Part shown: in pieces, positions 4,323 through 27,219 of the stretch
Layout: the number at the start of each line of letters is the position of its first letter
How positions within the stretch are numbered: the first letter of the stretch is position 1
Source: Microbacterium hominis
Lineage (GTDB): Bacteria > Actinomycetota > Actinomycetes > Actinomycetales > Microbacteriaceae
Assembly (NCBI RefSeq): GCF_013282805.1
Contig: NZ_CP054038.1
Location: 496,001-560,000, forward strand
Length of the DNA stretch: 64,000 bases
Direction: 5' to 3'
Program-made: the position numbers and the translations under genes
The notes under the pieces: generated by a model
The model's database searches: none
The model's input: only the letters and a program-made list of their open reading frames with translations
What the model was told of the DNA's origin: nothing

Positions 4323-4328
4323 GCCGTC

Positions 4329-9126: not shown

Positions 9127-9188
9127 CACACCCTTCTGCGGTCACCGACGCTGGTGCCCGACCGATCTGTCTACAGCATTGCATGGTT

Positions 9189-10017: not shown

Positions 10018-10019
10018 CG

Positions 10020-10882: not shown

Positions 10883-11941
10883 TCAGTCCGCCGTCTCGCG
10901 GATGGCCTGGTAGGCCTCCAGGTTCTCGCCGGTGAAGTAGCCCTCGAAGAACGTCTCGGCCTTGCTGATGAAGGCGTCCATGTCGATGTCCTCCTGCTCG
11001 ACGACCGTGAACGCGTCATTGGCGCGGTACTCGTCGAGGACCTCCTCGGTCGCCTCGTCGACGCAGTCGCGGTTCTCGGGGCGGATCTCGTGGATGGTCT
11101 CCTCGAGCAGCGCGGCCTGCTCCTCGCTCATCTTCTCGTAGGTCGCGTCGCTGACGATGATCCAGTGGATGCCGACCTGGTGGTTGTTCAGGACGGCGGT
11201 GTTGAGCACCTCGTCGTAGCTGGCGGCGTTCGTCGCGACGATCGGGTTCTCCTGGCCGGCGGCGATGCCCTGCTGCAGTGCGGAGTAGACCTCTTCGAAG
11301 GCGACGGAGACCGGGTTGGTGACGCCGAGCGCCTCCGCGTTGGCGAGGAACTGCGGCGAGTTCGGGAACCGGATCGGCACACCGTCGAGGTCGTCGGGGC
11401 TGGTGACCTCGACGTCCTTCGTGGTGAAGGTGCGGTCGCCGAAGAACCATCCGTCGACGACGGAGACGCCGGTCGCCTCGTGGAAGGCTGTGAACAGCTC
11501 CTCCGACGACTCGTCGATCCACCGGAAGGCGTGGTCGACGTCGTTGAACGCGTACGCGGCGTCGACGACGCCGATCGGCTCGAAGGTGGAGCTCAGCGCG
11601 GACGCACCCTGCAGGTCGATGTCGATGTCACCGGCCTGCACGAGCGGGAACCGGTCGGCGTCGGGGCCGAGCTGGCTCGCGGGGAACAGGTCGACCGTGA
11701 AGCCGATGTCGGCATCCTCGAGACGATCCTTGAGCAGTTGGACGCCGCAGTAGTAGTTCGGCGTCTCCTCGTTCTGGCTGGTCGCGACCGTCAGCGTCAC
11801 GGGTTCATTCGTGGATTCGGAAGCGTCTTCCGTCTCCGTCGGGGTGCCGCCGCCGCCGGCGCAGCCGGTGACGACGAGTGCGGATGCTGCGAGCACCGAC
11901 GCGGTAATGCGGCCTCGGCGCGTCGATCGGGCTGTGCCCAT
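10883..11941 (-). CDS. dctP: TRAP transporter substrate-binding lipoprotein (DctP family)
   Basis: 352 residues from ATG 11941, with GAGGAG upstream. The signal peptide ends in a lipobox (ALVVTGCAGG, Cys27), followed by a serine/threonine/glutamate linker. The mature part shows DctP-family features: LTVATSQNE, VDLFPASQLGPDADRF, GVPIRFPNSPQFLANAEALG and VYSALQQGIAAGQENPI. It captures an organic acid outside the membrane and delivers it to DctQM. Those permease genes lie 3.3 kb away on the same strand, separated by plus-strand genes, so the transporter is split. Quinate, shikimate or a related acid is the likely substrate by context. Confidence 0.88.
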   Translation of the reverse strand: MGTARSTRRGRITASVLAASALVVTGCAGGGGTPTETEDASESTNEPVTLTVATSQNEETPNYYCGVQLLKDRLEDADIGFTVDLFPASQLGPDADRFPLVQAGDIDIDLQGASALSSTFEPIGVVDAAYAFNDVDHAFRWIDESSEELFTAFHEATGVSVVDGWFFGDRTFTTKDVEVTSPDDLDGVPIRFPNSPQFLANAEALGVTNPVSVAFEEVYSALQQGIAAGQENPIVATNAASYDEVLNTAVLNNHQVGIHWIIVSDATYEKMSEEQAALLEETIHEIRPENRDCVDEATEEVLDEYRANDAFTVVEQEDIDMDAFISKAETFFEGYFTGENLEAYQAIRETAD

Positions 11942-12125
11942 GTGACTGTCTCCTCTTACTCTGCGCACGTCTTCGTGCAAGCGCGGACGTGTCATTCGGT
12001 GGCCGCCCCGCGGCATCCGGTCGTCGTGACGTCGCACGGGGCGAGATCGTCGTCGACCAGGCTGTCGCGGTGCGGCTCGGTGGCAGTTGCGACTCTCTCG
12101 GACTCGGGACGGTTCGCAAAGCGAT

Positions 12126-12142
12126 GTCCCGGCGAATGGAAC
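12126..12142 (+). promoter_or_regulatory. IclR-type element, copy 1 of 2
   Basis: GTCCCG-GCGAA-TGGAAC, nearly identical to the elements at 9266 and 17320. It lies about 185 nt upstream of dctP and 123 nt upstream of the oxidoreductase gene. Confidence 0.6.
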
Positions 12143-12175
12143 ATGCCTTCCGACTCGCGGTCCGGGCGTCCCGCG

Positions 12176-12192
12176 GAGCCACTGAGTGGAAC
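12176..12192 (+). promoter_or_regulatory. IclR-type element, copy 2 of 2
   Basis: GAGCCA-CTGAG-TGGAAC. It shares ACTG-N2-TGGAAC with the palindrome at 4251. The spacing to the first element is 50 nt, about five helical turns, which would put both sites on one face of the DNA. Confidence 0.6.
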
Positions 12193-12264
12193 GTGGACGG
12201 GTCGTCGGTTCATGGTGCCATACGCTCGGAGGCATCGCCGCCGCGACGACGCAAGGGGAACCCG

Positions 12265-13356
12265 ATGACCGTTTCCGGACAGCCTGCGGTGCGCATCGCC
12301 GTGATCGGTGCGGGATTCATGGGGCGACAGCACATCGAGTTCGTCCACGCCGCCGCGGGGGCACGGCTGGTCGCCGTGGTCGACCCGGCGGTGACCGACG
12401 GCGAGGCCTTCGGGTGCCCGCTCTTCGACGGGACGGCGGCCATGCTCGAGGCGGTGCGACCGGATGCCGTCATCATCGCCAATCCGAACCGCGTCCATGT
12501 CGACACGGCGATCGAGTGCCTGGGCGCCGGTGTCGCGGTGCTGCTCGAAAAGCCGATCGCCAGCACATTCGGCGATTCGCGGCGACTCGTGCGCGAGGTC
12601 GCTCGGCGAGCCGATGCGCGCCTGCTCGTCGGACACCACCGCCGGCATCATCCCGCCATCGCCCGTGCGCGCGTGGCGGTCCGTGAGGGGGAGCTCGGCC
12701 AGATCGTGGCCGTCAGCGGAATGTGGTCGGCCCGCAAGGACGACGCGTACTTCTCCGACCTGCCCTGGCACCGCGAACCCGGCGCCGGTGTGATGCTCAT
12801 CAACGTCGTGCACGACCTCGACCTGCTGCGCCACCTGCTCGGCGAGGTCGCGCAGATCCAGGCGATGAAGAGCCACCATGCGCGGGGTCTCGCGGTCGAG
12901 GACACCATCTCGCTGAGCCTGCGATTCGACAGCGGTGCGGTGGGGAGCTTCCTGGCCTCCGACGCCGGGGTCTCGCCGTGGGGGTGGGACCAGGCGACCG
13001 AGGAGACGGCCGCGTTCCCGTACGTCCCGGACGAGATCGCATACCGTGTGGTCGGCACGCGCGCCGGCCTGTCGGTGCCGAATCTCGCGATGTACGGGTA
13101 TCACCCCTCGGTGGCCGCGGACTGGCACTCCCCGCTGTCGCGCACCTACCTGGCGGCGCCGCCGCGCGGGTCGTTCCAGGCCCAGCTGGACCACTTCCTC
13201 GACGTCGCCCGTGGCGACGCACCGCCTCTGGTGTCGGCCGAGGACGCGTCACGCACGCTGGCGCTCGTCGAAGCTGCGACCTGGGCGGCGCAGACGGGAG
13301 AGACGGTCGACGTGGAGCGCTTCCGCGTCGACGCGATCAGAGCGGCTGACAGCTGA
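12265..13356 (+). CDS. Gfo/Idh/MocA family oxidoreductase
   Basis: 363 residues from ATG 12265 (AAGGGGAA upstream). NAD-binding motif AVIGAGFMGRQHIEF (about 12-26), family motif EKPIAS (about 98-103), and a C-terminal substrate domain with GVMLINVVHDLDLLRHLLGE, where the histidine and aspartate correspond to the usual catalytic region. It likely oxidises a hydroxyl of a cyclitol or sugar acid. Its stop overlaps the next start by one base, linking it to the FAD oxidoreductase. Two IclR-type elements lie upstream. A role on quinate-like or other ring polyols is inferred from context; the LigC semialdehyde dehydrogenases of aromatic pathways belong to the same superfamily but are shorter. Confidence 0.87.
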   Translation: MTVSGQPAVRIAVIGAGFMGRQHIEFVHAAAGARLVAVVDPAVTDGEAFGCPLFDGTAAMLEAVRPDAVIIANPNRVHVDTAIECLGAGVAVLLEKPIASTFGDSRRLVREVARRADARLLVGHHRRHHPAIARARVAVREGELGQIVAVSGMWSARKDDAYFSDLPWHREPGAGVMLINVVHDLDLLRHLLGEVAQIQAMKSHHARGLAVEDTISLSLRFDSGAVGSFLASDAGVSPWGWDQATEETAAFPYVPDEIAYRVVGTRAGLSVPNLAMYGYHPSVAADWHSPLSRTYLAAPPRGSFQAQLDHFLDVARGDAPPLVSAEDASRTLALVEAATWAAQTGETVDVERFRVDAIRAADS

Positions 13357-14711
13357 TGCCCGGTCCCCACGGCTTCGACGCGATCGTCGTGGGCGGAGGA
13401 CTGGCCGGCCTGGCCGCCACCCAGCGCCTCGCTGCGGCGGGGGCGAGGGTCGCCCTCGTGGAGAAGCGCCCTCGGCTGGGAGGCAGCTCGGCGATGAGCG
13501 GCGGATGGTTCGCCCTTTCCGGCACCGCCGTGCAGCGGCGCGTCGGTGTCGCCGACTCGGACGACGTGTTCCTCGCCGACCTCGTGGCCACGGGCGGGGG
13601 CGCCGCCGATCCGGCGCTGCTGGAGGCGCTCGTCGCCCGGCAGTCGGACGCGACGGTGGCCATCGAGCGGGCGGGCGCATGGACGGGCGAGCTCAAGGTG
13701 AGCGCGGGAATGACCGTGGCACGCGCCCACCTCGTGCGCATCGCGGCGCTGCTCGGGATGCTCGAGGAGGAGGCGGTCGCCGCCGGGGCGACGGTGCTGC
13801 GCGGCCGGGCCGTGGCGGAGCTGGTGCACGACGGTAGGCGCGTCGTCGGGGTCCGTACCGGGTCCGACCTGCTCGAGGCTCCCGCGGGTGTCGTCCTCAC
13901 CACCGGAGGCTTCTCGCGCTCGCCCGAGCTGCTCGAGCTGTTCGTGCCGGACCAGGCGGCCGCGATGCCGTACGGGGGAGTGGGGAACACCGGCGACGGT
14001 CTGCGCATGGCGTGGCTGCTGGGCGCGGGACTCGCCGACATCGGACATGTCACGGGCACCTACGGGCAGCACGCCGAGACGAGCGACGACGAGCATGAGC
14101 TCCTCACCGCGAACTACCTCGGCGCGATCCTCGTGAACTCCCGCGGGGAGCGGTTCGCCGACGAGTCCGCGTCGTACAAGGTCCTCGGTGCCGCGGTGCT
14201 GGCCCAGCCGGGCCGGACGGCGTTCCAGATCTTCGACGCGCGCGTGCGGGCGCTCTCCCGACCCGGGGTGCCGCTGTCGGACATGGACCGGATCGAGCAG
14301 CTCGGCCATCTGGTCACCGCGCCCACGATCGGAGCGCTCGCCGCCGAGGTGGGGATTCCACCGCGGGCGCTGCAGGCGACGGTGTCGGAGTACAACGGAA
14401 TCGTGGCGGGCACTCGGCCGGACGGATTCGGGCGGACCGGGCTCGTGAACGGGGTGGGCGCGCTCGTGCCGGTCGCGACCCCTCCGTTCTGGGCCTATGC
14501 GGCCGTCACGGCCATGACGTCCACCTTCGGCGGCATCAGGGTCGGAGCGGACACCGGGGCGCGACGGGTCGACGGCACCCGGATCGACGGCCTGTACGCC
14601 GCCGGCGAGGTGGTCGGCGGATTCCACGGCGCGTCGTACATGACAGGGTCGGCTCTCACCAAGGCCCTCGTCTTCGGCTTCGCGGCCGCCGACGCGATCT
14701 CGGGTCGCTGA
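13356..14711 (+). CDS. FAD-dependent oxidoreductase, fumarate reductase flavoprotein family
   Basis: 451 residues. It begins with an FAD-binding Rossmann motif, AIVVGGGLAGLAAT (about 9-22), then EKRPRLGGSSAMSGG, typical of the FAD_binding_2 family (fumarate reductase, 3-ketosteroid dehydrogenase). The C-terminus has the usual second FAD contact, GLYAAGEVVGGFHGASYMTGSALTKAL. Such enzymes introduce or reduce C=C bonds next to carbonyls. Coupled to the upstream dehydrogenase, it could desaturate a keto-cyclitol on the way to an aromatic or enone product; this is an inference. Downstream the genes converge with aroQ. Confidence 0.85.
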   Translation: MPGPHGFDAIVVGGGLAGLAATQRLAAAGARVALVEKRPRLGGSSAMSGGWFALSGTAVQRRVGVADSDDVFLADLVATGGGAADPALLEALVARQSDATVAIERAGAWTGELKVSAGMTVARAHLVRIAALLGMLEEEAVAAGATVLRGRAVAELVHDGRRVVGVRTGSDLLEAPAGVVLTTGGFSRSPELLELFVPDQAAAMPYGGVGNTGDGLRMAWLLGAGLADIGHVTGTYGQHAETSDDEHELLTANYLGAILVNSRGERFADESASYKVLGAAVLAQPGRTAFQIFDARVRALSRPGVPLSDMDRIEQLGHLVTAPTIGALAAEVGIPPRALQATVSEYNGIVAGTRPDGFGRTGLVNGVGALVPVATPPFWAYAAVTAMTSTFGGIRVGADTGARRVDGTRIDGLYAAGEVVGGFHGASYMTGSALTKALVFGFAAADAISGR

Positions 14712-14738: not shown

Positions 14739-15182
14739 TCAGCGCGGCGGTGTGAGCCGGGCCGCGGTGCGGATCGCCAGTTCGTAGCCGTACGCGCCCG
14801 CGCCGGCGATCACCGCCCGGGCGACCGTGGAGATCAGCGATGTGCGGTGGATCTCGTCGCGGGCATGGATGTTGGTGATGTGCACCTCGACCACCGGTGT
14901 CGTGAGCATATGCAGCGCGTCCAGCAGGGGCACCGAGGCGAAGCTCAGCGCCGCCGGATTCACGACGACGGTCGCGCTCTGCCGGAACGCCTCGTGCACC
15001 CATTCCACGAGCTCGTGCTCCGCGTTCGACTGGGCGAAGAACAGATCGAAGCCGACTTCGTCGGCGACGCGCTCGCAGTCGGCGCGGATGTCGGCGAGGG
15101 TGGCCGTGCCGTACAGCTCCGGCTCGCGCTGTCCGAGCATGTTCAGATTTGGCCCGTTCAGCACGAAGAGGCGTCGGGTCAT
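14739..15182 (-). CDS. aroQ: 3-Dehydroquinate dehydratase, type II
   Basis: 147 residues, the normal size of dodecameric type II dehydroquinases. Motifs are intact: LNGPNLNMLGQREPELYG with R19 and catalytic Y24, VVNPAALSF, and HITNIHARDEIHRTS with the active-site histidine. It interconverts 3-dehydroquinate and 3-dehydroshikimate. In this island it would feed 3-dehydroquinate from quinate oxidation to the dehydroshikimate dehydratases, so a catabolic (QsuC-like) role is likely; a biosynthetic role cannot be excluded. It follows dctQM on the same strand but behind a strong hairpin. Confidence 0.92.
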   Translation of the reverse strand: MTRRLFVLNGPNLNMLGQREPELYGTATLADIRADCERVADEVGFDLFFAQSNAEHELVEWVHEAFRQSATVVVNPAALSFASVPLLDALHMLTTPVVEVHITNIHARDEIHRTSLISTVARAVIAGAGAYGYELAIRTAARLTPPR

Positions 15183-15259: not shown

Positions 15260-16540
15260 CTACAGCAGTCCGAGCAGCGTCGGCAGGGCCGTCACGATCT
15301 GCGGGAACAGGGTGAGCAGCAGCAGGACGACGCCGAGCGGGATGAGGAACGGGAGGATGCCGCGGAACAGCTCTCCCATGGGCCGTCGGGTGATCGACCC
15401 CACCACGAACAGCACGGCACCGACCGGTGGTGTCAAGGACCCGATCATCAGGTTCAGGATCATGATCACGCCCAGCTGCACCGGCTCGATCCCGAACTCG
15501 GCGACGATCGGCATGAGGATGGGCACCAGCACCAGGATCACCGGCGGCGCCTCGAGGGGCACGCCCAGCAGGATCAGCAGCACGTTCAGGATCAGCAGGA
15601 ACACGATCGGGTTGTCGGTGACCCCGAGCAGCCACTCACCGAGGGCCCGTGACACCTGCTCGCGGGCCAGCACCTGGCCCATGAGGTTCGATGCGCCGAG
15701 GATCAGCAGGATGCCACCGGAGATGACGACCGTCTCCTTCGCCGACTTCCAGAACACCGGCCAGGTCAGCGTGCGGTAGATCAGGCCGAGCGCCAGCATG
15801 TAGGCGGCGGCGATGCCCGCGCTCTCGGTCGGTGTGAACAGGCCGCTGAAGATGCCGCCGAGGATGATCACGGGCAGCATGGCAGGCCCGATCACGCGCA
15901 CCGCCGCCTTGCCCAGCAGCGCGCCGTTGAACGGCCGGCTCACGGCGACTTCCGGGTGACGGCGCACCCAGACGAAGACGTAGATCGCGAGCCCGACGGC
16001 CATGAGCATCGCGGGGATGATCGAGCCCGCGAACAGCGCACCCGTCGAGATCGACGCCGTGGCCGCGAACAGCACTGCGGGCACGCTCGGCGGCATCACC
16101 GTGCTCATCAGCGATCCCGAGGCCGTGAGACCGGCCGAGAAGCCGTACGGGTAGCCGGCCTTCAGCATCTGCGGGATCTGCACCTTGCTCGTCGAGGCCG
16201 CGTCGGCGAGCGCCGAGCCGCTGATCCACGAGAAGCCGATCGCCGTGCCGAGGTTGACGTAGGCGAGGTGCCCGGGGAGCCGGGGGAGCAGCGCTCGCGC
16301 CAGATCGTACAGACGGGTGGCGATGCCGAGGTTGTTGGCGATGCTGCCGACGAAGATGAACAGCGGAACCGCCAGCAGCGGGAAGCTGTTGATGCCGTTC
16401 ACGATCGACGAGACCGCGTAACCGGCCGAGAGGCCCTGACTGTAGAAGTAGAGCATGCTCGCCGCGATCATCGCGAAGGCGACGGGCACCCGCAGCAGCA
16501 GGAAGACGACGAACAGCAGGATGTAGAGCCAGAGTTCCAC
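15260..16540 (-). CDS. dctM: TRAP transporter large permease
   Basis: 426 residues, almost entirely hydrophobic, with about 12 transmembrane segments. Family signatures include LLRVPVAFAM near the N-terminus, NLGTAIGFSWISGSALADAAS, GFSAGLTASGSLMSTVMPPSVPAVLF and LTPPVGAVLFV. It is the ion-coupled transport subunit of a TRAP carboxylate importer. It lies 3 nt after dctQ. Together with the DctP lipoprotein at 10883 it should import the acid degraded here. Confidence 0.93.
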   Translation of the reverse strand: MELWLYILLFVVFLLLRVPVAFAMIAASMLYFYSQGLSAGYAVSSIVNGINSFPLLAVPLFIFVGSIANNLGIATRLYDLARALLPRLPGHLAYVNLGTAIGFSWISGSALADAASTSKVQIPQMLKAGYPYGFSAGLTASGSLMSTVMPPSVPAVLFAATASISTGALFAGSIIPAMLMAVGLAIYVFVWVRRHPEVAVSRPFNGALLGKAAVRVIGPAMLPVIILGGIFSGLFTPTESAGIAAAYMLALGLIYRTLTWPVFWKSAKETVVISGGILLILGASNLMGQVLAREQVSRALGEWLLGVTDNPIVFLLILNVLLILLGVPLEAPPVILVLVPILMPIVAEFGIEPVQLGVIMILNLMIGSLTPPVGAVLFVVGSITRRPMGELFRGILPFLIPLGVVLLLLTLFPQIVTALPTLLGLL

Positions 16541-16543: not shown

Positions 16544-17200
16544 TCAGCCCTCCATCTCGCCGATGTCGAGCTTGCGCTCGGGGCGGTTCGCGTAGGGGAT
16601 CTTGAAGGCGGAGTGGATCGCCGCCGACACGAAGCCGATGAGCGCGAAGATGTAGAGCACGCCCAGCGGGACGTGCATCGCCGCGCTGGCGCGCCCCCAT
16701 TCGGTGTCGATCTTCACCCACGCCTCGAACGCGAGGGCGACGCTGGTGGCGACCATGATCACGGCGGAGACGACGCGCAGCGCGATGAACAGGCGGGTGC
16801 CCGCCAGCAGCTCGTCGAAGATCTCGAGGACGATGTGGCCGTTGCGGCCGACGAGGTAGCCGGTCACGACGAACGTCATGGCGATCATCGACAGCAGTGC
16901 GAGCTCGCCCGCCCCGACCCAGTTCACCGAGGGGAAGTAGCGCCCCAGCACCTGGTACATGACGCCGAAGACGATGAGGGCGAACAGCGTGACGCCGATC
17001 GTGATCTCGATGGCCGACAGGATCCGCAGGAACAGGGGGTCCTCGGGGGCGCCGCGGTTGAGGCCGGGAGCGGTGTAGTAGGTGTCGGTGGCGGGGTAGA
17101 TGGACTCGCCCTCGGCCTCCGAGGCCTTGCGCGCCTGCTCGCCGTCCGCATCGCGGTGCGGCTCGTCCTCGGGCGTCCGCTCCGCGTCGTTGTCGGTCAT
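16544..17200 (-). CDS. dctQ: TRAP transporter small permease
   Basis: 218 residues with a hydrophilic, acidic N-terminal tail of about 65 residues, then four transmembrane segments in the DctQ pattern (ITIGVTLFALIVFGVMYQV, ELALLSMIAMTFVV, NGHIVLEIFDELL, and a final segment near AALMHVPLGVLYIFALIG). The motif GHIVLEIF is typical of the family. The charged tail is longer than usual. It is the first gene of the dctQM unit and has an IclR-type element about 120 nt upstream. Confidence 0.9.
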   Translation of the reverse strand: MTDNDAERTPEDEPHRDADGEQARKASEAEGESIYPATDTYYTAPGLNRGAPEDPLFLRILSAIEITIGVTLFALIVFGVMYQVLGRYFPSVNWVGAGELALLSMIAMTFVVTGYLVGRNGHIVLEIFDELLAGTRLFIALRVVSAVIMVATSVALAFEAWVKIDTEWGRASAAMHVPLGVLYIFALIGFVSAAIHSAFKIPYANRPERKLDIGEMEG

Positions 17201-17405: not shown

Positions 17406-20093
17406 CTACTTGACGACGGTGACGACCGCGCTCGAGGAGAGCTGCTCCTGGGCGCCGTCGGCGTTCAGCACGTCGATGGTCAGTGTCAGGGTCACCTCCC
17501 CGGTGGGCACGTTGTTGTCGAGGTCCGCCTTGTCGATCTTCACGATGACGCGGTTCGGGTTCGCCGTGACGACGTCGACGGGCAGCGCCTGCAGTCCCAG
17601 CGGTGTCGTCAGCGCGGCGCCGCCGTCGTAGGTGTAGCCGGCGGGGAGCGCGAACTGCGCCGTGACGGTCCCGTGGATGCCGGTGAACAGCCCGGTGCCG
17701 GAGGCGAGGTTCAGCCTCGCCGGCGTGAAGGTGAGCGCGCCCGGCTGGTCCTCGGCCGTCAGGTAGACCTCGATCTTCCCGGTCGGCCGCGGGTCGGTGC
17801 AGTCGTTGAAGAAGTACTCACCGGCACGATCGAACGTGTGCTGGTAGGTCTCGCCCGGCTGCAGCCTCGCGTTGAACTCGCCCTCGAAGAACTGCGTGGC
17901 GCAGTGCTCCTTCAGGTTCGGGAAGTTCGGGAACGTCTCGACCCCGGGATTGCGGAAGGTCACCGTCGTTCCGACCGGCACGCGCAGGTGCGTCGGCTGC
18001 ATGCCGCTCTGCGACACGCTGTCACGCGCCGCGGCGGTGTCGGCCGTACGGCTGCTGCGGGCCAGCAGCACGGTGTTCTCGACCGTCTCGCCCGCCACGG
18101 CGCCGCCGCTGACCGGGCGTCGGATCGACAGCGGACCGGTGATCGGACCCTCCTGGCTCCCCGATGCGGTGGTGTACGTGCCGCCGAGCTTGAACGCCCA
18201 GAGCGAGTCGCCCCGTGTGACCGAGCCGCCGTAGGGGTTCGTCGATCCCGCCGCGATGACGGCGACGTACTGCTCGCCGTCCACCTCGTACGTCACCGGC
18301 GCCCCGGCGATGCCCGAGCCGGTCTGGAACTCCCACAGCACGTCGCCGTGCGCTGCATCCATCGCCAGCAGGCGACCGTCGATCTGGCCGACGAACAGCA
18401 GATCGGATGCCGTCGTCAGCGGCCCCTGTCCGTGGGACATGTCGGTGCCGAGGTGGTTGCGCCACGCCACTTCGCCGGTCGAGGCGTCGTAGGCGAGGAT
18501 GCCGCCGGTCTGGTACTGCCCCATCGCGCGCTGGCCGTTGGCCGCCGCGCCGTTCCAGTGCGCCACCGGGTTGGTGCCGTACGGGAAGTAGACGAGGTTC
18601 GTGCTGTGGCTGTACGAGTTGTTCGACCAGTCGCCGCCGCCGTTCTGGCTCGTCGTCGACAGGATCGGCGCGTCCCACTGCGGGTCGTACATGCAGCCCT
18701 CACGGTGGTCCTGGCCCTCCGGGTAGGTGAGGAAGGGCTCGTCGACGGCCACATAGCTGTCGGGGTTGTAGACGAGGTTGCCGTCCGCGTCGGGCTGGTA
18801 GCCGTTGTAGTTCGGCACTGCGCGCCACGGGTCTCCCGGGATGTTGTCGGGGTCGAGCTTCTCCCACACGAGGCACTCGGGGAGCAGTCGGTTCACGGGG
18901 AACGGCTGCGTCTCGGCGTGCGCCTGGCGCGAGTCGGTGATCATCGGCCTGTCGACCACGGGCAGGGCGGGCTGACCGTTCGTGCGGTCGAGCACGAACT
19001 GGTGACCCGACTTGCTCCCGTAGAAGAGCACCTTGCGCTCGACGCCCTCGATCTCGATGTCGGCGAGGGTCGGCGGGTGCACGTTGTCCATGTCCCAGAC
19101 GTCGTGGCGGATCGACTGATAGTGCCACTTGTAGTCGCCGCTGACCGCGTCGACGGCCACCATCGTGCTCGAGAAGAGGTTGTCGCCGGGTCGCAGCGAG
19201 CCGTTCTGCGACGACGTGCAGCTGCGGGCGTTGCCGAAGGTGATGAAGTAGTAGCCGAGCTCCGGGTCGACGGAGCCGTGCATCCACGGGGTCGAGCCTC
19301 CGGTGAGGGAGCAGTCCACGCCGTTGGGCAGCACCGGACCCCACGTGGCCCCGGCATCCACCGAGTTCCCGTTGACGTCGGTGTAGATCACTCCGCGATC
19401 GGGACCGCCGAAGAAGTGCCAGACGTAGCTGCCGTCGCTCGCGTCGAGCGCGATCACGGCGGCGCGGTTTCCGTTGGCGGCGTGCGCGAAGACGAGACCG
19501 TTGTAGTAGACGGTCGCGACGCGATCGATGTTGCCGAGGAACTCGCCGTTCGGACCCTCCGGCGCGACGACCCAGACCTCCTCGCCGGTCTCCTGGTCCA
19601 GGGCCACCACGCGGTCGTCGGCGAGGGTGAAGATCTTCCCGTCGCCGGCCGAGACGCCGCGGCGGGTGCCGGCGGCCGGGTAGTCGGTGGGCTCCCACTT
19701 CCACTCCGACGCGCCCGTCGCACCGTCGACGGCGATGACGCCGCCGCTGGGGGTGTCGACGTAGATGACGCCGTCGACGACGATCGGGGTCGTCTGCTGT
19801 CCGACGTCGTCGCTGGCGGGGGCGATCGCCGAGACATGGGTGCGCCAGGCCGGCGCGAGCTCGTCGAGGTTCCTCTGGTCGATCTGCGTCAGGCCCGAGT
19901 AGTGCTGGTTGCCGAGGTTGCCGCCAACGGTCGGCATGTCCGCGCCGGTGGGCTCCATACCCGTCAGCCCGGCGGGGGGCATCGGCTCGGCGGGTCTTCC
20001 CAGCCCGTACGCGGGCGAGGCGGCCACGGCGAGCACGATCGCGAGTGCTCCGATCCCTGCGGCTCCCCACCCTCTGGTCAGTCTTCTGCGCAT
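17406..20093 (-). CDS. Exported PQQ-type dehydrogenase with cupredoxin-like C-terminal domain
   Basis: 895 residues; AAGGAG lies 8 nt before ATG 20093. A Sec signal peptide (1-30) precedes an eight-bladed quinoprotein propeller (about 50-640). Family motifs include TTPIVVDGVIYV, ALDQETGEEVW and HDVWDMDNVHPPTLADI, whose aspartates (334/336) match the catalytic region of glucose/quinate dehydrogenases. Residues about 698-780 form a cupredoxin-like domain (VPVGTTVTFRNPG). Its copper site is degenerate: the usual Cys-x-x-His with a nearby Met reads CTDPRPTGKIEV. A further beta-rich domain closes the protein (about 783-895). No membrane anchor domain is seen. Extracellular oxidation of quinate or a polyol is the likely role. 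It is monocistronic, between dctQM and the divergent aldehyde dehydrogenase operon. Confidence 0.85.
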   Translation of the reverse strand: MRRRLTRGWGAAGIGALAIVLAVAASPAYGLGRPAEPMPPAGLTGMEPTGADMPTVGGNLGNQHYSGLTQIDQRNLDELAPAWRTHVSAIAPASDDVGQQTTPIVVDGVIYVDTPSGGVIAVDGATGASEWKWEPTDYPAAGTRRGVSAGDGKIFTLADDRVVALDQETGEEVWVVAPEGPNGEFLGNIDRVATVYYNGLVFAHAANGNRAAVIALDASDGSYVWHFFGGPDRGVIYTDVNGNSVDAGATWGPVLPNGVDCSLTGGSTPWMHGSVDPELGYYFITFGNARSCTSSQNGSLRPGDNLFSSTMVAVDAVSGDYKWHYQSIRHDVWDMDNVHPPTLADIEIEGVERKVLFYGSKSGHQFVLDRTNGQPALPVVDRPMITDSRQAHAETQPFPVNRLLPECLVWEKLDPDNIPGDPWRAVPNYNGYQPDADGNLVYNPDSYVAVDEPFLTYPEGQDHREGCMYDPQWDAPILSTTSQNGGGDWSNNSYSHSTNLVYFPYGTNPVAHWNGAAANGQRAMGQYQTGGILAYDASTGEVAWRNHLGTDMSHGQGPLTTASDLLFVGQIDGRLLAMDAAHGDVLWEFQTGSGIAGAPVTYEVDGEQYVAVIAAGSTNPYGGSVTRGDSLWAFKLGGTYTTASGSQEGPITGPLSIRRPVSGGAVAGETVENTVLLARSSRTADTAAARDSVSQSGMQPTHLRVPVGTTVTFRNPGVETFPNFPNLKEHCATQFFEGEFNARLQPGETYQHTFDRAGEYFFNDCTDPRPTGKIEVYLTAEDQPGALTFTPARLNLASGTGLFTGIHGTVTAQFALPAGYTYDGGAALTTPLGLQALPVDVVTANPNRVIVKIDKADLDNNVPTGEVTLTLTIDVLNADGAQEQLSSSAVVTVVK

Positions 20094-20398: not shown

Positions 20399-21850
20399 AT
20401 GGCTGCATCAGCACCCAAATCCCTGTCGCCCGAGCAGGAGAGCGAGATCGACGAGGTCTTCGCCCGCGCACGCGCGGCGCTCGCGATCATCGAGACCTAC
20501 GATCAGGCCCGGGTGGATCGCCTGATCCGGGCGGTCGCCTGGGCGGTGGCCAACCGCAGCACATTCCGCCGGCTCGTCTCGATGGGCATCGAGGAGTCCG
20601 GTCTCGGCGACTTCGACAGCCGCATGAACAAGCGCATGAAGATCCGCGGGGTGCTGCGCGACGCGCTGCGCAGCCCCTCCGTCGGGATCATCGAAGAGGA
20701 TGCCGCGCGCGGCCTGGTCAAGTACGGCAAGCCCGTCGGCGTCATCGGCTGCGTCGTGCCGACCACCAACCCCGACCTGACGCCGGCCGGCAACGCGATC
20801 TATGCGATCAAGGCGCGCGACGTCGTCGTCTTCTCCCCGCACCCGCGCTCGCAGCACACGACCTTCGAGACGGTCCGGCTCATGCGCGAGGCGCTGGAGG
20901 CCGAAGGCGCGCCCGCCGACATCCTGCAGTGCATCACGCTGCCGAGCCTCGCGGCGTCGCAGGAGATCATGCGGCGCTCCGACCTCGTGATCGCCACAGG
21001 AGGTCAGGGACTGGTGCGCGCGGCGTACAGCTCCGGCACCCCGGCCTACGGGGTGGGAGCCGGGAACGCGACCGAGTTCGTCGACGAGACGGCCGACCTC
21101 GCCGAGACCGCGCGCAACTGCATGCTCTCGAAGACCTCGGACTTCGGCTCGGGCTGCTCGGCCGACGGCAACGTGCTGGTGCCCGCAGCCCGCTACGCCG
21201 ACATGCTCGCCGCTCTCCAGGCCGAGGGCGGGTATCTCGCGAGCGCCGCGGAGCGGGATGCGCTGCGTGGCGCGATGTGGGACGACGAGGGGCACCGCCT
21301 GCCCGACACCGTCGCGATCTCGCCGCAGGCCCTCGCGCGCGCGGCCGGGTTCGGCATCCCGGACGACCGCCGGTTCATCGTCGTCGAGGGGGACGGGATC
21401 GGCGAGGATCGGCAGTTCTGCAAGGAGAAGCTCACGACGCTCATGGCGGTGCATGCCTACGAGGGCGGCTTCGAAGACGGTGTCGAGGTCGCCAAGCGGC
21501 TCTACGAGATCGGCGGCAAGGGGCATTCGTGCGGGATCGCATCGACGGACGACGCCCATATCGATTACTTCGCCCAGCACATGCCGGTCTCGCGGATCAT
21601 GGTGCGCCAGCCCAATTCGAAGGCGAACGCGGGATCGTTCACGAACGGGATGCCGATGACCTCGTCGATGGGATGCGGCACGTGGGGCGGCAACATCACG
21701 TCGGAGAACGTCTCGCTGCGCCACTACCTCAACACGACCTGGGTCTCCCGCGCCATCGCGGAGGACCGGCCCTCCGACGAGGAGCTCTTCGGCGACTTCT
21801 ACGACGCCGCGCTCGAGGCGTCGGACCCGGCTGTGGCCGCGGCATCGTGA
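20399..21850 (+). CDS. Acylating aldehyde dehydrogenase (CoA-dependent)
   Basis: 483 residues from ATG 20399 (GGAG 6 nt upstream; ATG 20384 is an alternative). Fold and motifs match acylating enzymes related to the AdhE N-terminal domain and to sulfoacetaldehyde dehydrogenase SauS: VGVIGCVVPTTNPDLTP, GVGAGNATEFVDETADL and SDFGSGCSADGNVLV, with probable catalytic Cys253. The reaction would be aldehyde + CoA + NAD(P)+ to acyl-CoA. It overlaps the next gene (GTGA) and opens a tight operon with a citryl-CoA-lyase-like protein and a TPP enzyme. The context suggests its aldehyde is made by the TPP enzyme and its acyl-CoA is cleaved by the lyase. Substrate unproven. Confidence 0.87.
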   Translation: MAASAPKSLSPEQESEIDEVFARARAALAIIETYDQARVDRLIRAVAWAVANRSTFRRLVSMGIEESGLGDFDSRMNKRMKIRGVLRDALRSPSVGIIEEDAARGLVKYGKPVGVIGCVVPTTNPDLTPAGNAIYAIKARDVVVFSPHPRSQHTTFETVRLMREALEAEGAPADILQCITLPSLAASQEIMRRSDLVIATGGQGLVRAAYSSGTPAYGVGAGNATEFVDETADLAETARNCMLSKTSDFGSGCSADGNVLVPAARYADMLAALQAEGGYLASAAERDALRGAMWDDEGHRLPDTVAISPQALARAAGFGIPDDRRFIVVEGDGIGEDRQFCKEKLTTLMAVHAYEGGFEDGVEVAKRLYEIGGKGHSCGIASTDDAHIDYFAQHMPVSRIMVRQPNSKANAGSFTNGMPMTSSMGCGTWGGNITSENVSLRHYLNTTWVSRAIAEDRPSDEELFGDFYDAALEASDPAVAAAS

Positions 21851-22746
21851 ACGGCGCGGATGAGGGCGCCGCCGGCGCGGATCCGGCGACCGGCAGGGAG
21901 TACGACGACCTCGTCTCCGAGGCCCGGCAGTGGTGGCAGACCGACATCATCGACGTGCACCCGGGCGAGATCGCGCTGCGGGGCTATCCGATCGAGGAGC
22001 TCATCGGCAACGCGGGCTTCGTCGACACGATCTGGCTCATGGTGCGCGGTGAACTGCCCTCCCGGGCGGAGGCCGCGCTGTTCGAAGCGGCGCTGGTCGC
22101 CTCGGTCGACCACGGCCCGCAGGCGCCGTCGATCGCGATCGCCCGCATGGCGATGACCTGCGGCGTGGCGATCAACGGTGCGATGGCCTCGGGGATCAAC
22201 GTGCTCGGCGACGTGCACGGCGGCCCGGGCCAGCAGTGCATGGAGCTGTACTTCGAGATCGACGCCGAAGCCGAGCGGACGGGCAGCCTCGAGGAGGCCG
22301 TTGCGTCGGTGCTGCGCCGTCACCGGGAGGGGGGCGAGAAGTACGTCCCCGGCTTCGGGCATCGCTTCCACCCGCTCGACCCGCGCACCCCGCGGCTGCT
22401 GTCGCTCGTCGACGACGCCGTCGCCGACGGCGTCATCGGCGGCCGGTTCGCGGCCATCGGGCGTGCCGTCGAGGACGCGATCAGCGACGGCCGCGCGCAG
22501 CGGATACCGATGAACGTCGACGGGGTGACCGCGGTCATCTACTGCGAGCTCGGATTCAGCCCCGAGCTCGGGCGGGGGGTGTTCATCCTCGCCCGCTCGG
22601 TCGGCATCCTCGCCCACGCGCACGAGCAGATGGTGCAGGGCGGGCGCATCAAGGGGCCGACGCCGAAGGCCATCGGCTACACGTACACGGGACCGGCTCG
22701 CCGATCGGTTCCGCACACAGGCGACGACAGAGGGAGAACGTCATGA
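21847..22746 (+). CDS. Citryl-CoA lyase-like protein of the citrate synthase superfamily
   Basis: 299 residues from GTG 21847. It is shorter than citrate synthase (about 430) and lacks its N-terminal part. Motifs typical of citryl-CoA lyase-type proteins are present: DHGPQAPSIAIARMAMTCG, GDVHGGPGQQ with the first catalytic histidine region, PGFGHRFHPLDPR with the second, and MNVDGVTAVIYCELG with the aspartate. Members cleave or form beta-hydroxyacyl-CoA thioesters such as citryl-CoA (to acetyl-CoA + oxaloacetate). Overlaps on both sides (4 nt each) place it firmly between the acylating dehydrogenase and the TPP enzyme. The true thioester is unknown. Confidence 0.85.
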   Translation: MNGADEGAAGADPATGREYDDLVSEARQWWQTDIIDVHPGEIALRGYPIEELIGNAGFVDTIWLMVRGELPSRAEAALFEAALVASVDHGPQAPSIAIARMAMTCGVAINGAMASGINVLGDVHGGPGQQCMELYFEIDAEAERTGSLEEAVASVLRRHREGGEKYVPGFGHRFHPLDPRTPRLLSLVDDAVADGVIGGRFAAIGRAVEDAISDGRAQRIPMNVDGVTAVIYCELGFSPELGRGVFILARSVGILAHAHEQMVQGGRIKGPTPKAIGYTYTGPARRSVPHTGDDRGRTS

Positions 22747-24506
22747 AGGATGTGGTGTCGAACCAGATCATCCGATATCTGGAGGCACGGGGCGTCGAGC
22801 ACATCTTCGGACTGTGCGGGCACACCAACATCGCGCTTCTGGCCGCCCTCGAGCAGAGCGAGCAGATCGCCTTCGTGAACGTGCGTCACGAGCAGATCGC
22901 CGCGCACGCGGCCGACGGCTACGCCCGGGTGACCAAGCGGACCGGGGTCGTCCTCTCGCACCTCGGCCCCGGCCTGACCAATGCGACCACGGGCGTGGCG
23001 AACGCCGCGCTGGACTCGATCCCGATGGTCGTGATCGCCGGCGACGTGCCGACGCACTACTTCGGCAAGCATCCGCATCAGGAGGTCAACCTGCACGCGG
23101 ATGCCGCCCAGTACGAGATCTACCGCCCCTTCGTCAAGCGCGCGTGGCGGGTGGATCAGCCTCACCTCATCGCCGAGATCCTGGACAAGGCCTTCACGCT
23201 TGCCGAGAGCGGGCGTCCGGGGCCGGTGCTGGTCGACGTGCCGATGGACGTGTTCTCGGCGGAGATCGACACCGCCCTGTTCGACCGGGTGATCGGCAAC
23301 ACCCGGGCCCTGGTCAAGCCGAGCCTCGACGAGGAGGTCGCCGAGCGGATCGTGCGGAACCTGCTCGAGGCCGAGCGGCCGGTGCTGTACGTCGGCGGCG
23401 GCGTCGTCGCCGCCGACGCCTCAGACGAACTCGTCGAGTTCGCAGAGCTGCTGTCGCTGCCCGTGGCGCACAGCCTCATGGGCAAGGGGGCCGTACCCGA
23501 CGACAGCCCCCTTGTCCTGGGGATGACCGGGTTCTGGGGCACGGCTCTCACCAATGAGCAGACCCGGACGGCGGATCGGATCCTCGCCCTCGGCACGCGC
23601 TTCGCCGAAGCCGACTCGAGCTCCTGGTATCCCGAGTACACCTTCGACATCCCGGGCACGAAGCTCATGCAGATCGACATCGATCCGTCCGAGCTCGGGC
23701 GCAACTACCCGCTGGAGATCGGCGCGATCGCCGACCTGAAGTCGGCGCTGACCGTGCTCCTGCGCGTGGCGCGCCGACTCGCTCCGGACGGGGTCCAGCG
23801 CCCCGAGCTGCGGGAGCGGATCGCCGCCGACCGCGCCGCGCGCAAGCGCGGGAACGCCGACGCGCAGGTCTCCGACGCGTGGCCGATGCGGCCCGAGCGG
23901 ATCCTCTCGGAGACGAGGGAGGTGCTGCCGGCCGACGCGATCATCACCACCGACGTCGGCTGGAACAAGAACGGCGTGGGGCAGCAGTTCGACATCCTCA
24001 CGCCCGGGACCTTCCTGACGCCGGGCGGCTTCGCGACGATGGGCTTCGGTGCTCCCGCCGCCGTCGGCGCGAAGATCGCGCAGCCGGGTCGCGTGGTCGT
24101 CTCGCTCGTCGGCGACGGCGGCTTCGGCCAGAACCCCGCGGTGCTCGCCACCGCGCGGGAGGAGGGCGTGCCCGTGGTCTGGGTCGTGATGAACAACAAC
24201 GCGTTCGGCACCATCGCGGGCCTCGAGAAGGCGGCGTTCGACACGACCTACGGCACCGTGTTCGGCAAGGGGGATGACCCCATGTACACCGACTACGCCG
24301 CGATCGCCCGGGCCTACGGCGTCACGGGGATCAAGGTCGAGTCGGCCGCCGAGTTCAAACCCGCGCTGGAGCGCGCGATCGCCCACGACGGCCCGGTCGT
24401 CATCGACGTGTCGATGGTGAACGTCCCTACGCCCACCACCGGGCACTGGAACATCCTCGACATCTACGCGCCCGGCGAGACCGTCGAGCACGTCGCCACG
24501 CACTGA
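22743..24506 (+). CDS. Thiamine pyrophosphate-dependent enzyme (2-oxoacid decarboxylase/acetolactate synthase type)
   Basis: 587 residues with the three-domain TPP layout. The N-terminal Pyr domain has VNVRHEQIAAHAADGYAR with the cofactor-activating glutamate (E50) and GPGLTNATTGVANA. A central domain carries RPVLYVGGG. The C-terminal PP domain has the TPP/Mg motif LVGDGGFGQNPAVL, ending at WVVMNNNAFG. The general class (decarboxylase, carboligase or acetyltransferase) is clear; the substrate is not. With its operon partners the simplest reading is decarboxylation of a 2-oxoacid to an aldehyde for the acylating dehydrogenase. 16 nt separate it from the qsuB fusion gene. Confidence 0.88.
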   Translation: MKDVVSNQIIRYLEARGVEHIFGLCGHTNIALLAALEQSEQIAFVNVRHEQIAAHAADGYARVTKRTGVVLSHLGPGLTNATTGVANAALDSIPMVVIAGDVPTHYFGKHPHQEVNLHADAAQYEIYRPFVKRAWRVDQPHLIAEILDKAFTLAESGRPGPVLVDVPMDVFSAEIDTALFDRVIGNTRALVKPSLDEEVAERIVRNLLEAERPVLYVGGGVVAADASDELVEFAELLSLPVAHSLMGKGAVPDDSPLVLGMTGFWGTALTNEQTRTADRILALGTRFAEADSSSWYPEYTFDIPGTKLMQIDIDPSELGRNYPLEIGAIADLKSALTVLLRVARRLAPDGVQRPELRERIAADRAARKRGNADAQVSDAWPMRPERILSETREVLPADAIITTDVGWNKNGVGQQFDILTPGTFLTPGGFATMGFGAPAAVGAKIAQPGRVVVSLVGDGGFGQNPAVLATAREEGVPVVWVVMNNNAFGTIAGLEKAAFDTTYGTVFGKGDDPMYTDYAAIARAYGVTGIKVESAAEFKPALERAIAHDGPVVIDVSMVNVPTPTTGHWNILDIYAPGETVEHVATH

Positions 24507-24522: not shown

Positions 24523-27219
24523 GTGCAGAGCGTCGCCATCTCGACGGTGTGTCTGTCGGGAACCCTCGAGGACAAGCTGCGGGCCGCCGCGGCCGCCGGC
24601 TTCACCGGCGTCGAGCTGCTCGAATACGACCTCGTCATGTCCTCGTGGTCGCCCAGACGCCTCGCCGAGGAGGCCTCGGCACTGGGGCTCGCGATCGAGG
24701 TGTACCAGCCGCTCCACGTCGAGGCTGTCCCGCCCGAGCGCTTCGGCGCGGTGCTGAGGCTGGCCGAGCGCAAGTTCGCCCTGCTCGCCGAGCTCGGGGC
24801 TCGCGTTCTGGTGTGCTGTGCGACGCGGACGCCGCAGGGGCTCGACGACGACGATCTCGCCGCGCGCCAGCTGCGCGAGCTCGCCGTGCGCGCGGAGGCG
24901 CGCGGCATCCGGCTCGCGTTCGAGGCCGTGCCGTGGGGACGGGTGCGCACCGTCGAGCACGCGTGGCGGCTCGTGCAGGCCGTGGCGCACCCCGCCCTCG
25001 GCCTGTGTCTCGACAGCTTCCACGTGCTGTCGGCGCGGAACGACCCGGCGGCGATCGCGCCGATTCCGGGGGACCGGATCTTCCACGTTCAGCTCGCCGA
25101 CGCTCCCCGGCTCGACATGGACGTGCGCGAGTGGAGCCTCCACGAGCGGGTGTTCCCCGGACAGGGCTCGCTCGAGGTCGTCGGCTTCCTCTCGCGCGTC
25201 TTCGAGAAGGGCTACACCGGCCCGATCGCGCTGGAGGTGTTCAACGACGTCTACCAGCAGGAGGACCCGCATCACGCCGCCACCGACGCCATGCGGTCGC
25301 TGCGGGTGCTCGCCGAGTCGCTGGAACCCGGCGCGGGCAGGTCGATATCGCCGCCGTCGGGTGTCGCGCTGCCTCCTGCCCCGCCGCTGGGCGGCTACGC
25401 GTTCGCGGAGCTCGCGGTCGACGAGGTCTCCGCGCCGCTCGTCGCGCGCACGCTCACCGCGCTCGGGTTCGTCGAGGCCGCCCGGCATCGCTCCAAGCCG
25501 GTCGGGCTGTGGGAGCAGGGCGACGCGCGCATCCTCCTCAATCGGGCGCCCGATCGGTCGGTCGCGCCGGCCACGGCCGCCGTGTGCGCGCTCGCGGTCG
25601 AGAGCGCAGACCCGGCCGCCTCGATGCGCCGCGCCGAGACGCTGCTCGCGCCGAAGCTCGCCAGGACGCGCCGTCCCGACGAGACCGACCTCGACTCGGT
25701 CGCGATGCCCGGCGGCACGGCGCTGTTCTTCTGCGGGGCGGCCGGCGGCCGGTCTTGGCTCGACGACTTCGCACGGTCCGGCGCCCCCGGCGTCGCCGAT
25801 CCCCTGCTGCGGCGCATCGACCACGTATCGATCACCGAGACGATCGACGACTTCGACCCCTCGACCCTGTTCCTCCGCGCGGTCCTGGGCCTTCCGCCCG
25901 GGGAGTCCGTCGAGAGCACCGCTCCCTTCGGCCTCGTCCGCACCTGGACCGCCGCCGACGCATCGCGCAGCACCCGTGTCGCGCTGAGCACCACACCGCT
26001 GCGGCGGGGCGACTGGGCTCCCGGTGTGGCGAACCCGCAGCTGGTCGCCTTCGCCACCGACGATGCGATCGCGTGCGCGAAGGAGCTGCGCCGGCGCGGG
26101 GCGCCGCTGCTCGGCATCCCGGACAACTACTACGACGACCTCGAAGCGCGCTGCGACCTGCCCGGCGGCATGATCGACGAACTCCGGGCCAACGCGATCC
26201 TGTACGACCGCGACGAGAACGGCGAGTTCCTGCACTTCTTCACCGAGATGGTGGGATCGCGGGTCTTCTTCGAAATCGTGCAGCGCATCGACGGCTACGA
26301 CGGCTTCGGCGACCCGCGCAGCGTTCCGCTGCGCATGGCCGCACACCGACGGCAGCGGATGCGCATGCTCGCCAGCGCCCCCACCAACCCCGCCGAGCAC
26401 CGCCACGACTACTCGCTGGCCCACCTCACGGCGCTGAGCCTCTCGCCGCCGGAGCTCGTGGATGCCGCCGCGGCAGCCGGCTACCGCTATGTCGGCGTGC
26501 GCATGACGAAGGTCACGCCGCAGGAGCCGCACTACCCGCTGGCCTACGACCCGGCGCTCATGCGCGCGACCAAGACCCATCTCGCCGCGACGGGCATCGA
26601 GGTGCTCGACATCGAGCTGGCGCGGTTCACGTCGGGCGACAACCCGCGCGACTACCTCCGCTTCCTCGAGGCGGGAGCCGAGCTCGGCGCGCGCCACGTC
26701 ATCGCGCAGTTCCCCGACGCCGACTTCGCCCGCAAGACCGACCGCTTCGCCGAGCTGTGCGCACTGGCGCGTCCGCTCGGGCTCACGATCGACCTCGAGT
26801 TCCCGTCGTGGACCGAGACGCCGAACCTCATCGAGGCGACACGCGTGCTGCGGGCCGCGGATCAGCCCAATGCGGGCCTGCTGATCGATCTGCTGCACTT
26901 CGCGCGGTCGGGGTCGAGCGTGGAAGAGCTGCGGAGCCTGCCGCGGGAGTGGTTCCACTACGCACACGTGTGCGACGCCCCGGCGGAGGTCCCCGCCACC
27001 ACCGCCGAGCTCATCCACACCGCGCGGTTCGAGCGGCTGTTCCCGGGCGAGGGCGGGATCGACGCGCCCGCGATCCTCGGGGCGCTGCCGAGCGGCATCC
27101 CCTACGCCCTCGAGATCCCGCGGGCGATGCTCGTCGCGCAGGTCGGCGCCAAGGAGCACGCGCGCCTGGCCATCGCCGCCGCGCGCGCCCACCTCGACGC
27201 GCTCGCCGTCGCGCGGTGA
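24523..27219 (+). CDS. Three-domain fusion: 3-dehydroshikimate dehydratase, dioxygenase-like VOC domain and second TIM barrel
   Basis: 898 residues from GTG 24523, one uninterrupted frame. Residues 1-270 are a QsuB/AsbF-type dehydratase barrel with all ligands (E134, D164, Q190, E238). Residues about 290-615 are the hydroxyphenylpyruvate-dioxygenase-like VOC part. Here H434 and E584 of the metal triad are kept, but the middle histidine is L507 (NPQLVAFAT, against PQHIAFAT in the paralogue). Residues about 628-898 are an additional isomerase-type TIM barrel with its own metal set (E759, D789, H815, E864). Usual QsuB proteins stop near 620. Expected output is protocatechuate from 3-dehydroshikimate; the extra barrel is unexplained. 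Last gene of the aldehyde dehydrogenase/lyase/TPP operon. Confidence 0.87.
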   Translation: MQSVAISTVCLSGTLEDKLRAAAAAGFTGVELLEYDLVMSSWSPRRLAEEASALGLAIEVYQPLHVEAVPPERFGAVLRLAERKFALLAELGARVLVCCATRTPQGLDDDDLAARQLRELAVRAEARGIRLAFEAVPWGRVRTVEHAWRLVQAVAHPALGLCLDSFHVLSARNDPAAIAPIPGDRIFHVQLADAPRLDMDVREWSLHERVFPGQGSLEVVGFLSRVFEKGYTGPIALEVFNDVYQQEDPHHAATDAMRSLRVLAESLEPGAGRSISPPSGVALPPAPPLGGYAFAELAVDEVSAPLVARTLTALGFVEAARHRSKPVGLWEQGDARILLNRAPDRSVAPATAAVCALAVESADPAASMRRAETLLAPKLARTRRPDETDLDSVAMPGGTALFFCGAAGGRSWLDDFARSGAPGVADPLLRRIDHVSITETIDDFDPSTLFLRAVLGLPPGESVESTAPFGLVRTWTAADASRSTRVALSTTPLRRGDWAPGVANPQLVAFATDDAIACAKELRRRGAPLLGIPDNYYDDLEARCDLPGGMIDELRANAILYDRDENGEFLHFFTEMVGSRVFFEIVQRIDGYDGFGDPRSVPLRMAAHRRQRMRMLASAPTNPAEHRHDYSLAHLTALSLSPPELVDAAAAAGYRYVGVRMTKVTPQEPHYPLAYDPALMRATKTHLAATGIEVLDIELARFTSGDNPRDYLRFLEAGAELGARHVIAQFPDADFARKTDRFAELCALARPLGLTIDLEFPSWTETPNLIEATRVLRAADQPNAGLLIDLLHFARSGSSVEELRSLPREWFHYAHVCDAPAEVPATTAELIHTARFERLFPGEGGIDAPAILGALPSGIPYALEIPRAMLVAQVGAKEHARLAIAAARAHLDALAVAR

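Follow-up and report, generated by a model that had tools for sequence, protein, structure and literature searches.

A conserved gene set around a thiamine diphosphate enzyme as a candidate for oxygen-independent quinate and shikimate breakdown

What pathway is encoded by an operon that joins a thiamine diphosphate (ThDP) enzyme to an acylating aldehyde dehydrogenase (ALDH) and a citryl-CoA-lyase-like protein? The question arises from a 64,000-nt stretch of the Microbacterium hominis genome (GCF_013282805.1, NZ_CP054038.1, positions 496,001-560,000 of the forward strand), referred to here as the window. The operon is located within a 21-kb quinate/shikimate cluster (6.4-27.2 kb of the window) and is followed by the gene of a fusion protein. 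It probably specifies a dioxygenase-independent catabolism of quinate and shikimate, in which dehydrated 3-dehydroquinate is opened by ring hydrolysis and metabolized through homocitryl-CoA to acetyl-CoA and 2-oxoglutarate. The genes at the center of this proposal are:

20399-21850, + strand: acylating ALDH, SauS-like (PF00171; NF047625 SauS, 452.7 bits, under the cut-off of 600)
21847-22746, + strand: citryl-CoA-lyase-like protein (NF004864, 434 bits, over the cut-off of 261)
22743-24506, + strand: ThDP enzyme, proposed cyclic 1,2-dione hydrolase (PF02776/PF00205/PF02775)
24523-27219, + strand: triple fusion of a dehydroshikimate dehydratase-like domain (residues 1-285), a domain like 4-hydroxyphenylpyruvate dioxygenase (HPPD; 286-615) and a TIM barrel termed C-type (about 616-898)
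26368-27216, + strand: the C-type TIM-barrel domain itself, the C-terminal third of the fusion, proposed to dehydrate 3-dehydroquinate to a dione

The initial annotation gave the spacing of these genes correctly. They overlap by exactly 4 nt (stop/start GTGA at 21847-21850 and ATGA at 22743-22746), and 16 nt separate the end of the ThDP gene from the next gene at 24523. The order is ALDH, lyase and ThDP enzyme, not ThDP enzyme first as then stated. The downstream neighbor had been read as a protocatechuate-forming enzyme; a dehydroshikimate dehydratase-like domain is indeed present, but the protein has three domains and its C-terminal third is a separate TIM barrel. SauS is the closest NCBIfam family to the window ALDH. 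The lyase combines its NF004864 score with the His/His/Asp of citrate-synthase-type enzymes.

To define the gene set beyond this genome, an alignment of the ThDP enzyme was used for scanning. At least 572 places were confirmed and the best 80 loci (68-90% identity) were kept, 53 of which reach at least 19 kb. They span Actinomycetes, Bacilli, other Bacillota, and Alpha-, Beta-, Gamma- and Deltaproteobacteria. Neighbors were grouped by BLAST and Louvain clustering, and one representative of each larger group was annotated. Open reading frames (ORFs) were then rescored with hidden Markov models (HMMs) of the groups at E 1e-20, and C-type and QuiC-type domains were identified by BLAST with the window domains at 100 bits. 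As a control, 40 stretches of 20 kb were placed arbitrarily, at round coordinates, in six of the genomes behind the loci and scored with the same HMMs.

The genes form a real conserved set, as expected of a single pathway. A complete series from aldehyde to acyl-CoA to lyase stands beside the ThDP gene at 56 of the 80 loci, which is more than chance, and 17 loci have the same pair as the window, acylating ALDH with citryl-CoA-lyase-like protein. The suspected tie to quinate/shikimate metabolism is also supported. A 3-dehydroquinate dehydratase is encoded at 45/80 loci (AroD 24, AroQ 24) and AroE at 32/80; among the long loci, AroD or AroQ is found at 33/53 against 0/40 control stretches (Fisher p 1.4e-11, indicative only as related loci are not independent). 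AroE, AroD, AroQ, DctM, DctP, acylating ALDH and shikimate kinase each scored 0/40 in the control. The other control counts were three each for plain ALDH and CoA-transferase, two each for Zn-dependent alcohol dehydrogenase (Zn-ADH) and IclR, and one each for lyases resembling citryl-CoA lyase (99 bits) and 3-hydroxy-3-methylglutaryl-CoA (HMG-CoA) lyase (86 bits). Further neighbors at the 80 loci include DctM (37), Zn-ADH (29), CaiB CoA-transferase (26) and QuiC-type domains (15). When AroD, AroQ or AroE and either a C-type barrel or a cupin are added to the series, 39 loci are complete, and 30 of these have no QuiC-type (N-type) dehydroshikimate dehydratase at 100 bits.

Within this set, several steps are exchangeable. 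Citryl-CoA-lyase-like and HMG-CoA-lyase-like genes occur at 31 loci each and never together, leaving 18 with neither. Acylating ALDH is found at 44 loci and plain ALDH at 26, with both at three; a CoA-transferase accompanies plain ALDH at 20 of its 26 loci and acylating ALDH at six. AroE (32) and Zn-ADH (29) coincide at two. Each ALDH route is found with each lyase (17, 22, 10 and 9 loci; 56 distinct). Both lyases retain their active sites. In the citryl-CoA-lyase-like proteins, H124 is present at 30/31 loci and H172 and D225 at 31/31; in the HMG-CoA-lyase-like proteins (346 bits for one representative against NF004283, cut-off 246), R21, D22, H213, H215 and C246 are present in at least 30/31. 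We take these residues to have their usual catalytic roles in the two families. Citryl-CoA and HMG-CoA lyases perform retro-Claisen cleavage of a tertiary beta-hydroxyacyl-CoA and release acetyl-CoA. The exchange pattern thus suggests that the common point is an acyl-CoA cleaved by such a lyase, and the lower half of the initial annotation (conversion of an aldehyde to a CoA thioester, then retro-Claisen cleavage of this tertiary beta-hydroxyacyl-CoA) is probably right in kind.

From these associations we infer every substrate and intermediate of the proposed pathway, as well as its dehydration, regiochemistry and end products; we derived its atom balance by hand. Quinate would be oxidized to 3-dehydroquinate; shikimate would reach the same compound through 3-dehydroshikimate and AroQ/AroD, whose reaction is reversible. 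Acting on 3-dehydroquinate as IolE acts on inosose, the C-type barrel would eliminate the C5 hydroxyl to yield 1-hydroxy-3,4-dioxocyclohexane-1-carboxylate. In dehydroshikimate, elimination of the C5 hydroxyl would produce aromatic protocatechuate; in 3-dehydroquinate, the same elimination would produce a non-aromatic 1,2-dione because C1 bears both a hydroxyl and a carboxyl group. The ThDP enzyme would hydrolyze the C3-C4 bond of the dione in the manner of cyclohexane-1,2-dione hydrolase (CDH) and IolD, giving homocitrate semialdehyde, i.e. 2-hydroxy-2-(2-oxoethyl)glutarate, with the aldehyde at C3 and the carboxylate at C4. The requirement of the lyase would fix this regiochemistry. Homocitryl-CoA would be formed by the acylating ALDH, the role proposed for the 20399-21850 product, or elsewhere by plain ALDH with a CaiB-type CoA-transferase. 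A citryl-CoA-lyase-like enzyme (proposed for the 21847-22746 product, with the substrate assigned from sequence) or an HMG-CoA-lyase-like enzyme would then release acetyl-CoA and 2-oxoglutarate.

The ring-opening step is suggested by the active site of the ThDP enzyme. We aligned 24 proteins: seven of the module, one paralogue (51-52% identity), one CDH, two IolD from two Bacilli genomes and 13 other ThDP enzymes. The CDH comes from Aromatoleum diolicum 22Lin (L109), and its match to PDB 2pgn covers all 589 residues. H27 of the window protein aligns with CDH H28, which we take to be needed for ring cleavage, and with IolD H40. This column holds His in all eight module-family proteins, CDH and both IolD, and Gly, Ser, Asp, Ala, Asn or Glu in the other 13, which come from the M. 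hominis genome and three others and thus sample ThDP enzymes only partially. H27, E50 and H73 are invariant at 80/80 loci. Overall similarity is low, with about 25% identity to the two IolD and about 27% to CDH. CDH H31, H76 and N484 are unmatched in the window protein (I30, L74, I491) and are also missing from both IolD; His73 lies one column off CDH H76. For carboligation, a CDH variant with H28A/N484A has been used (PMC12247030). We propose that the ThDP enzyme is a cyclic 1,2-dione ring hydrolase of the CDH/IolD type; 2-oxoacid decarboxylase, as originally suggested, is not the best reading of a protein with the His of these hydrolases.

The fusion protein supplies the candidate for the preceding dehydration. 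Its residues 5-612 match QuiC1 (PDB 5hmq) at 405 bits, and it scores 476 bits with the QuiC model, under the cut-off of 1200. At other loci, residues 616-898 have their counterpart in a protein encoded next to the ThDP gene, with 36-61% identity when near relatives are set aside (hits of at least 100 bits). C-type barrels are encoded at 54/80 loci. Six of these have the same fusion as the window and one (L012) is truncated where the locus ends; the remaining loci have no QuiC-type domain within the same ORF. In other bacteria, the C-type TIM barrel is a separate protein that accompanies the ThDP enzyme. An interpretation of this stand-alone barrel as the protocatechuate-forming domain was rejected because it matches the C-terminal domain of the fusion. 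The fusion of the barrel with dehydroshikimate dehydratase-like sequence, seen in the window and at six of the 80 loci, counts in favor of the proposed pathway. At eight loci, a small cupin is encoded shortly after the ThDP gene (L066 11782-12162 and seven others; before it in L023). It is found only where no C-type barrel was found (eight against 54 loci, none with both), and it is possibly an unrelated replacement for the barrel in some Bacilli.

Several observations weigh against this pathway; they concern the loci, the ThDP enzyme, the barrel and the dioxygenases. Apart from the relatedness of the loci, which are the 80 closest of at least 572, the set is often incomplete within the sequence covered, which reaches 19 kb at only 53 loci: of the 80, 18 have no lyase, 13 no ALDH, 20 no AroD, AroQ or AroE, and 18 neither C-type barrel nor cupin. 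One genome outside the 80 has both lyase types side by side beside the ThDP gene (L167 768-2596). The best NCBIfam scores of the window ThDP protein are with acetolactate synthases (TIGR00118, 419 bits, cut-off 538), and databases name it accordingly. It is conceivable on this basis that the gene encodes an acetolactate synthase or acyl transfer enzyme with incidental neighbors. We regard this as extremely improbable: none of the acetolactate synthase models among the 25 families shown reaches its cut-off, another M. hominis protein (L001) groups with the acetolactate synthases in our tree, and the same neighbor families recur across phyla. The IolD model (TIGR04377, cut-off 715) is also absent from the 25 best of 55 families, the last of which scored 305 bits. 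In the tree, the module enzymes form their own supported clade, which joins neither CDH nor IolD. An attempt to name the reaction by phylogeny failed, since long branches meet and deep branches are not resolved.

The barrel retains residues of the dehydroshikimate dehydratase site and so could make protocatechuate. Across 22 members, E, D, Arg and E are present in 22/22 and His in 19/22, while Gln is present in five and replaced by His in 17; seven QuiC-type comparison sequences are themselves uneven at this site (Asp 3/7, Gln 3/7). If the barrel were a further dehydroshikimate dehydratase, the ThDP enzyme, ALDH and lyase would constitute a lower protocatechuate pathway. The QuiC model gives weak matches to 13 of the 22 (best E 1.4e-8), and M. 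hominis has an intradiol dioxygenase pair. Such a function is nevertheless unlikely, as the window protein already has a QuiC-type domain that would make the barrel redundant. We know of no ThDP enzyme that opens an aromatic ring. Nine of 47 genomes surveyed have neither PF00775 nor PF02900, and the hosts include Anaerospora, Desulfofustis and Formimonas, which we take to be anaerobic lineages.

The fold of the barrel is compatible with another chemistry. The predicted structure of a C-type homologue (L020 11779-12624, pLDDT 93) has Lmo2234, IolI and QuiC1 as its nearest folds, and these also include many epimerases in addition to the isomerase IolI. The same hydroaromatic pathway might then have a different middle, in which an IolI-like isomerase shifts the carbonyl or epimerizes the ring, the substrate cleaved by the ThDP enzyme is an alpha-ketol or else a dione with its C5 hydroxyl still in place, and the lyase yields acetyl-CoA with another 2-oxoacid, e.g. 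4-hydroxy-2-oxoglutarate. We consider this variant doubtful. Dehydration to a dione is favored by the H27 signature common with dione hydrolases and by the conserved Arg (22/22) and His (19/22) of the barrel, as in the dehydroshikimate dehydratase site, and the dehydrated route would end directly in central metabolites.

Dioxygenases were surveyed in 47 genomes, namely that of M. hominis and 46 behind the loci, several of which are drafts or metagenome-assembled genomes (MAGs). PF02900 (LigB) is matched in 29 and absent from 18, PF00775 is matched in 17 and absent from 30, and nine lack both, including those of Domibacillus indicus (L058) and Anoxybacillus tepidamans (L070). PF02900 is presumably wider than LigAB, with matches in Bacilli and anaerobes probably being other superfamily members. 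As many of the 29 are such organisms, it is a weak marker of protocatechuate cleavage. The initial annotation had proposed that protocatechuate 4,5-cleavage yields 4-carboxy-4-hydroxy-2-oxoadipate, which the operon converts through citrate semialdehyde and citryl-CoA to acetyl-CoA and oxaloacetate. In support of this, its ALDH-lyase half is of the right kind, a protocatechuate-forming type of domain is encoded downstream, and PF02900 is widespread among the module genomes. The route was rejected for M. hominis, whose genome has no PF02900 match and instead carries two adjacent PF00775 matches, an intradiol PcaGH-like pair. With 17 other genomes also devoid of PF02900 and the active-site His of the ThDP enzyme as in dione hydrolases, it is very unlikely. 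The citrate-like carbon would more simply be C1 of quinate itself, before aromatization. To judge from the fused dehydroshikimate dehydratase domain and the intradiol pair, M. hominis seems to have the ordinary protocatechuate route alongside the proposed ring-hydrolytic pathway.

The proposed ring hydrolysis has parallels in known systems. In the myo-inositol route (IolG, IolE, IolD, IolI), a ketone is introduced on the carbocycle, a TIM-barrel enzyme eliminates water to a 1,2-dione and a ThDP enzyme hydrolyzes the ring to an aldehyde acid. The module resembles it in the proposed sequence of steps and the active-site His, but differs in that its substrate would be a hydroaromatic acid, its ThDP enzyme is distant, and it would end in a CoA lyase rather than the Iol lower pathway. 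With CDH, the module enzyme shares the GHT loop as well as His28, but no supported branch; strain 22Lin has both CDH and the module (L076). The QsuABCD/QuiABC/PcaGH route has in common with the cluster an AroE-type dehydrogenase, a 3-dehydroquinate dehydratase, a QuiC-like dehydratase and an IclR-family regulator. In contrast to that route and the beta-ketoadipate pathway, the module would bypass aromatization and dioxygenases, in line with the complete loci devoid of QuiC-type dehydratases. The lyases keep the catalytic residues of citryl-CoA and HMG-CoA lyases, but their proposed substrate is homocitryl-CoA and their product 2-oxoglutarate. Unlike in the SauS system, no sulfonate genes were noted among the annotated neighbor groups. 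As the initial annotation had held, no published description of the pathway was found; subscription journals were mostly beyond the search and may contain one.

The remainder of the cluster in the window is consistent with hydroaromatic metabolism. Its other features are:

6402-7289, - strand: AroE-type quinate/shikimate dehydrogenase, second copy (PF08501; 309 bits with the HMM of module AroE neighbors)
7286-9129, - strand: second QuiC-like dehydroshikimate dehydratase, with N-terminal and HPPD-like domains in two different frames
9276-10781, + strand: ORF with IclR-family regulator (PF01614, PF09339; domains at residues 261-491)
10883-12235, - strand: ORF with TRAP solute-binding protein DctP (PF03480; domain at residues 161-429)
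11989-13356, + strand: ORF with Gfo/Idh/MocA oxidoreductase, accessory dehydrogenase (domains from residue 101)
13356-14711, + strand: flavocytochrome-c-like FAD dehydrogenase, accessory (PF00890; TIGR01813 under cut-off)
14739-15182, - strand: AroQ, type II 3-dehydroquinate dehydratase, second copy (PF01220, 166 bits)
15260-16540, - strand: TRAP large permease DctM (PF06808)
16544-17200, - strand: TRAP small permease DctQ (PF04290)
17406-20093, - strand: pyrroloquinoline quinone (PQQ)-dependent dehydrogenase (PF01011; TIGR03075 277 bits and TIGR03074 204 bits, both under cut-off)

The other aroE and aroQ copies are near genome position 2.01 Mb (aroQ at about 2.015 Mb), and the presence of second copies here counts in favor of the proposed pathway. 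The PQQ-dependent dehydrogenase possibly serves periplasmic quinate/shikimate oxidation. The QuiC-like gene at 7286-9129 is either broken or affected by a sequence error. Given the position of its IclR domains, the regulator gene probably starts near 10040. A second, sugar/cyclitol-like set is encoded upstream (901-5707, + strand), comprising an AP_endonuc_2 barrel, Gfo/Idh and ThuA, along with two neighboring ORFs that contain IclR domains.

Other genes recur near the module. A shikimate-kinase-family gene (L057 6635-7192, - strand; PF01202 in the representative) is present at 20/80 loci by HMM; the first grouping had placed it at 18 loci, all Bacilli by title. A conserved protein of about 449 residues (L028 2625-3974, - strand, and 17 other loci) looks like a membrane permease; Pfam gave no match to its representative at E 0.001. 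An MAG titled Bordetella parapertussis, a label that may be wrong, has the ThDP gene with acylating ALDH and AroE (L039). ThDP paralogues with 51-53% identity occur in Noviherbaspirillum (L069 15948-17672, - strand; with the GHT loop), Streptomyces and Nonomuraea.

The ThDP gene is patchily distributed. Among the best 120 database relatives, those named at 83-90% identity are mostly from Microbacterium, Agromyces and Occultella, and the gene was detected in two of 199 genomes of the family, M. hominis included, at E 1e-150 or better. At the same threshold, a plasmid collection contained three records, one with 68% and two with 52-53% identity. In the genus of Propionivibrio soli (G016), the gene is present in 13 of 28 genomes at a threshold of E 1e-100. 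One genome of this genus has three copies; AroE, C-type and TRAP genes adjoin every copy, and AroQ adjoins one of them. Propionivibrio limicola and Ilyobacter insuetus are specialists for hydroaromatic compounds according to the titles of the papers on them. We count the three-copy genome and these specialists in favor of the proposed pathway.

Textbook quinate and shikimate degradation proceeds via protocatechuate and needs O2 for ring cleavage. It is slightly more likely than not that a widespread, O2-independent breakdown exists, which avoids aromatic intermediates by means of a ThDP ring hydrolase and cleaves homocitryl-CoA to acetyl-CoA and 2-oxoglutarate. Plants are rich in quinate and shikimate, and a hydrolytic route would convert these acids to central metabolites and NAD(P)H without O2. 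If correct, the pathway would amend the naming of many proteins now called 'acetolactate synthase', 'sulfoacetaldehyde dehydrogenase' and 'citryl-CoA lyase', and it would explain how fermenting bacteria specialized in hydroaromatic compounds live on them.

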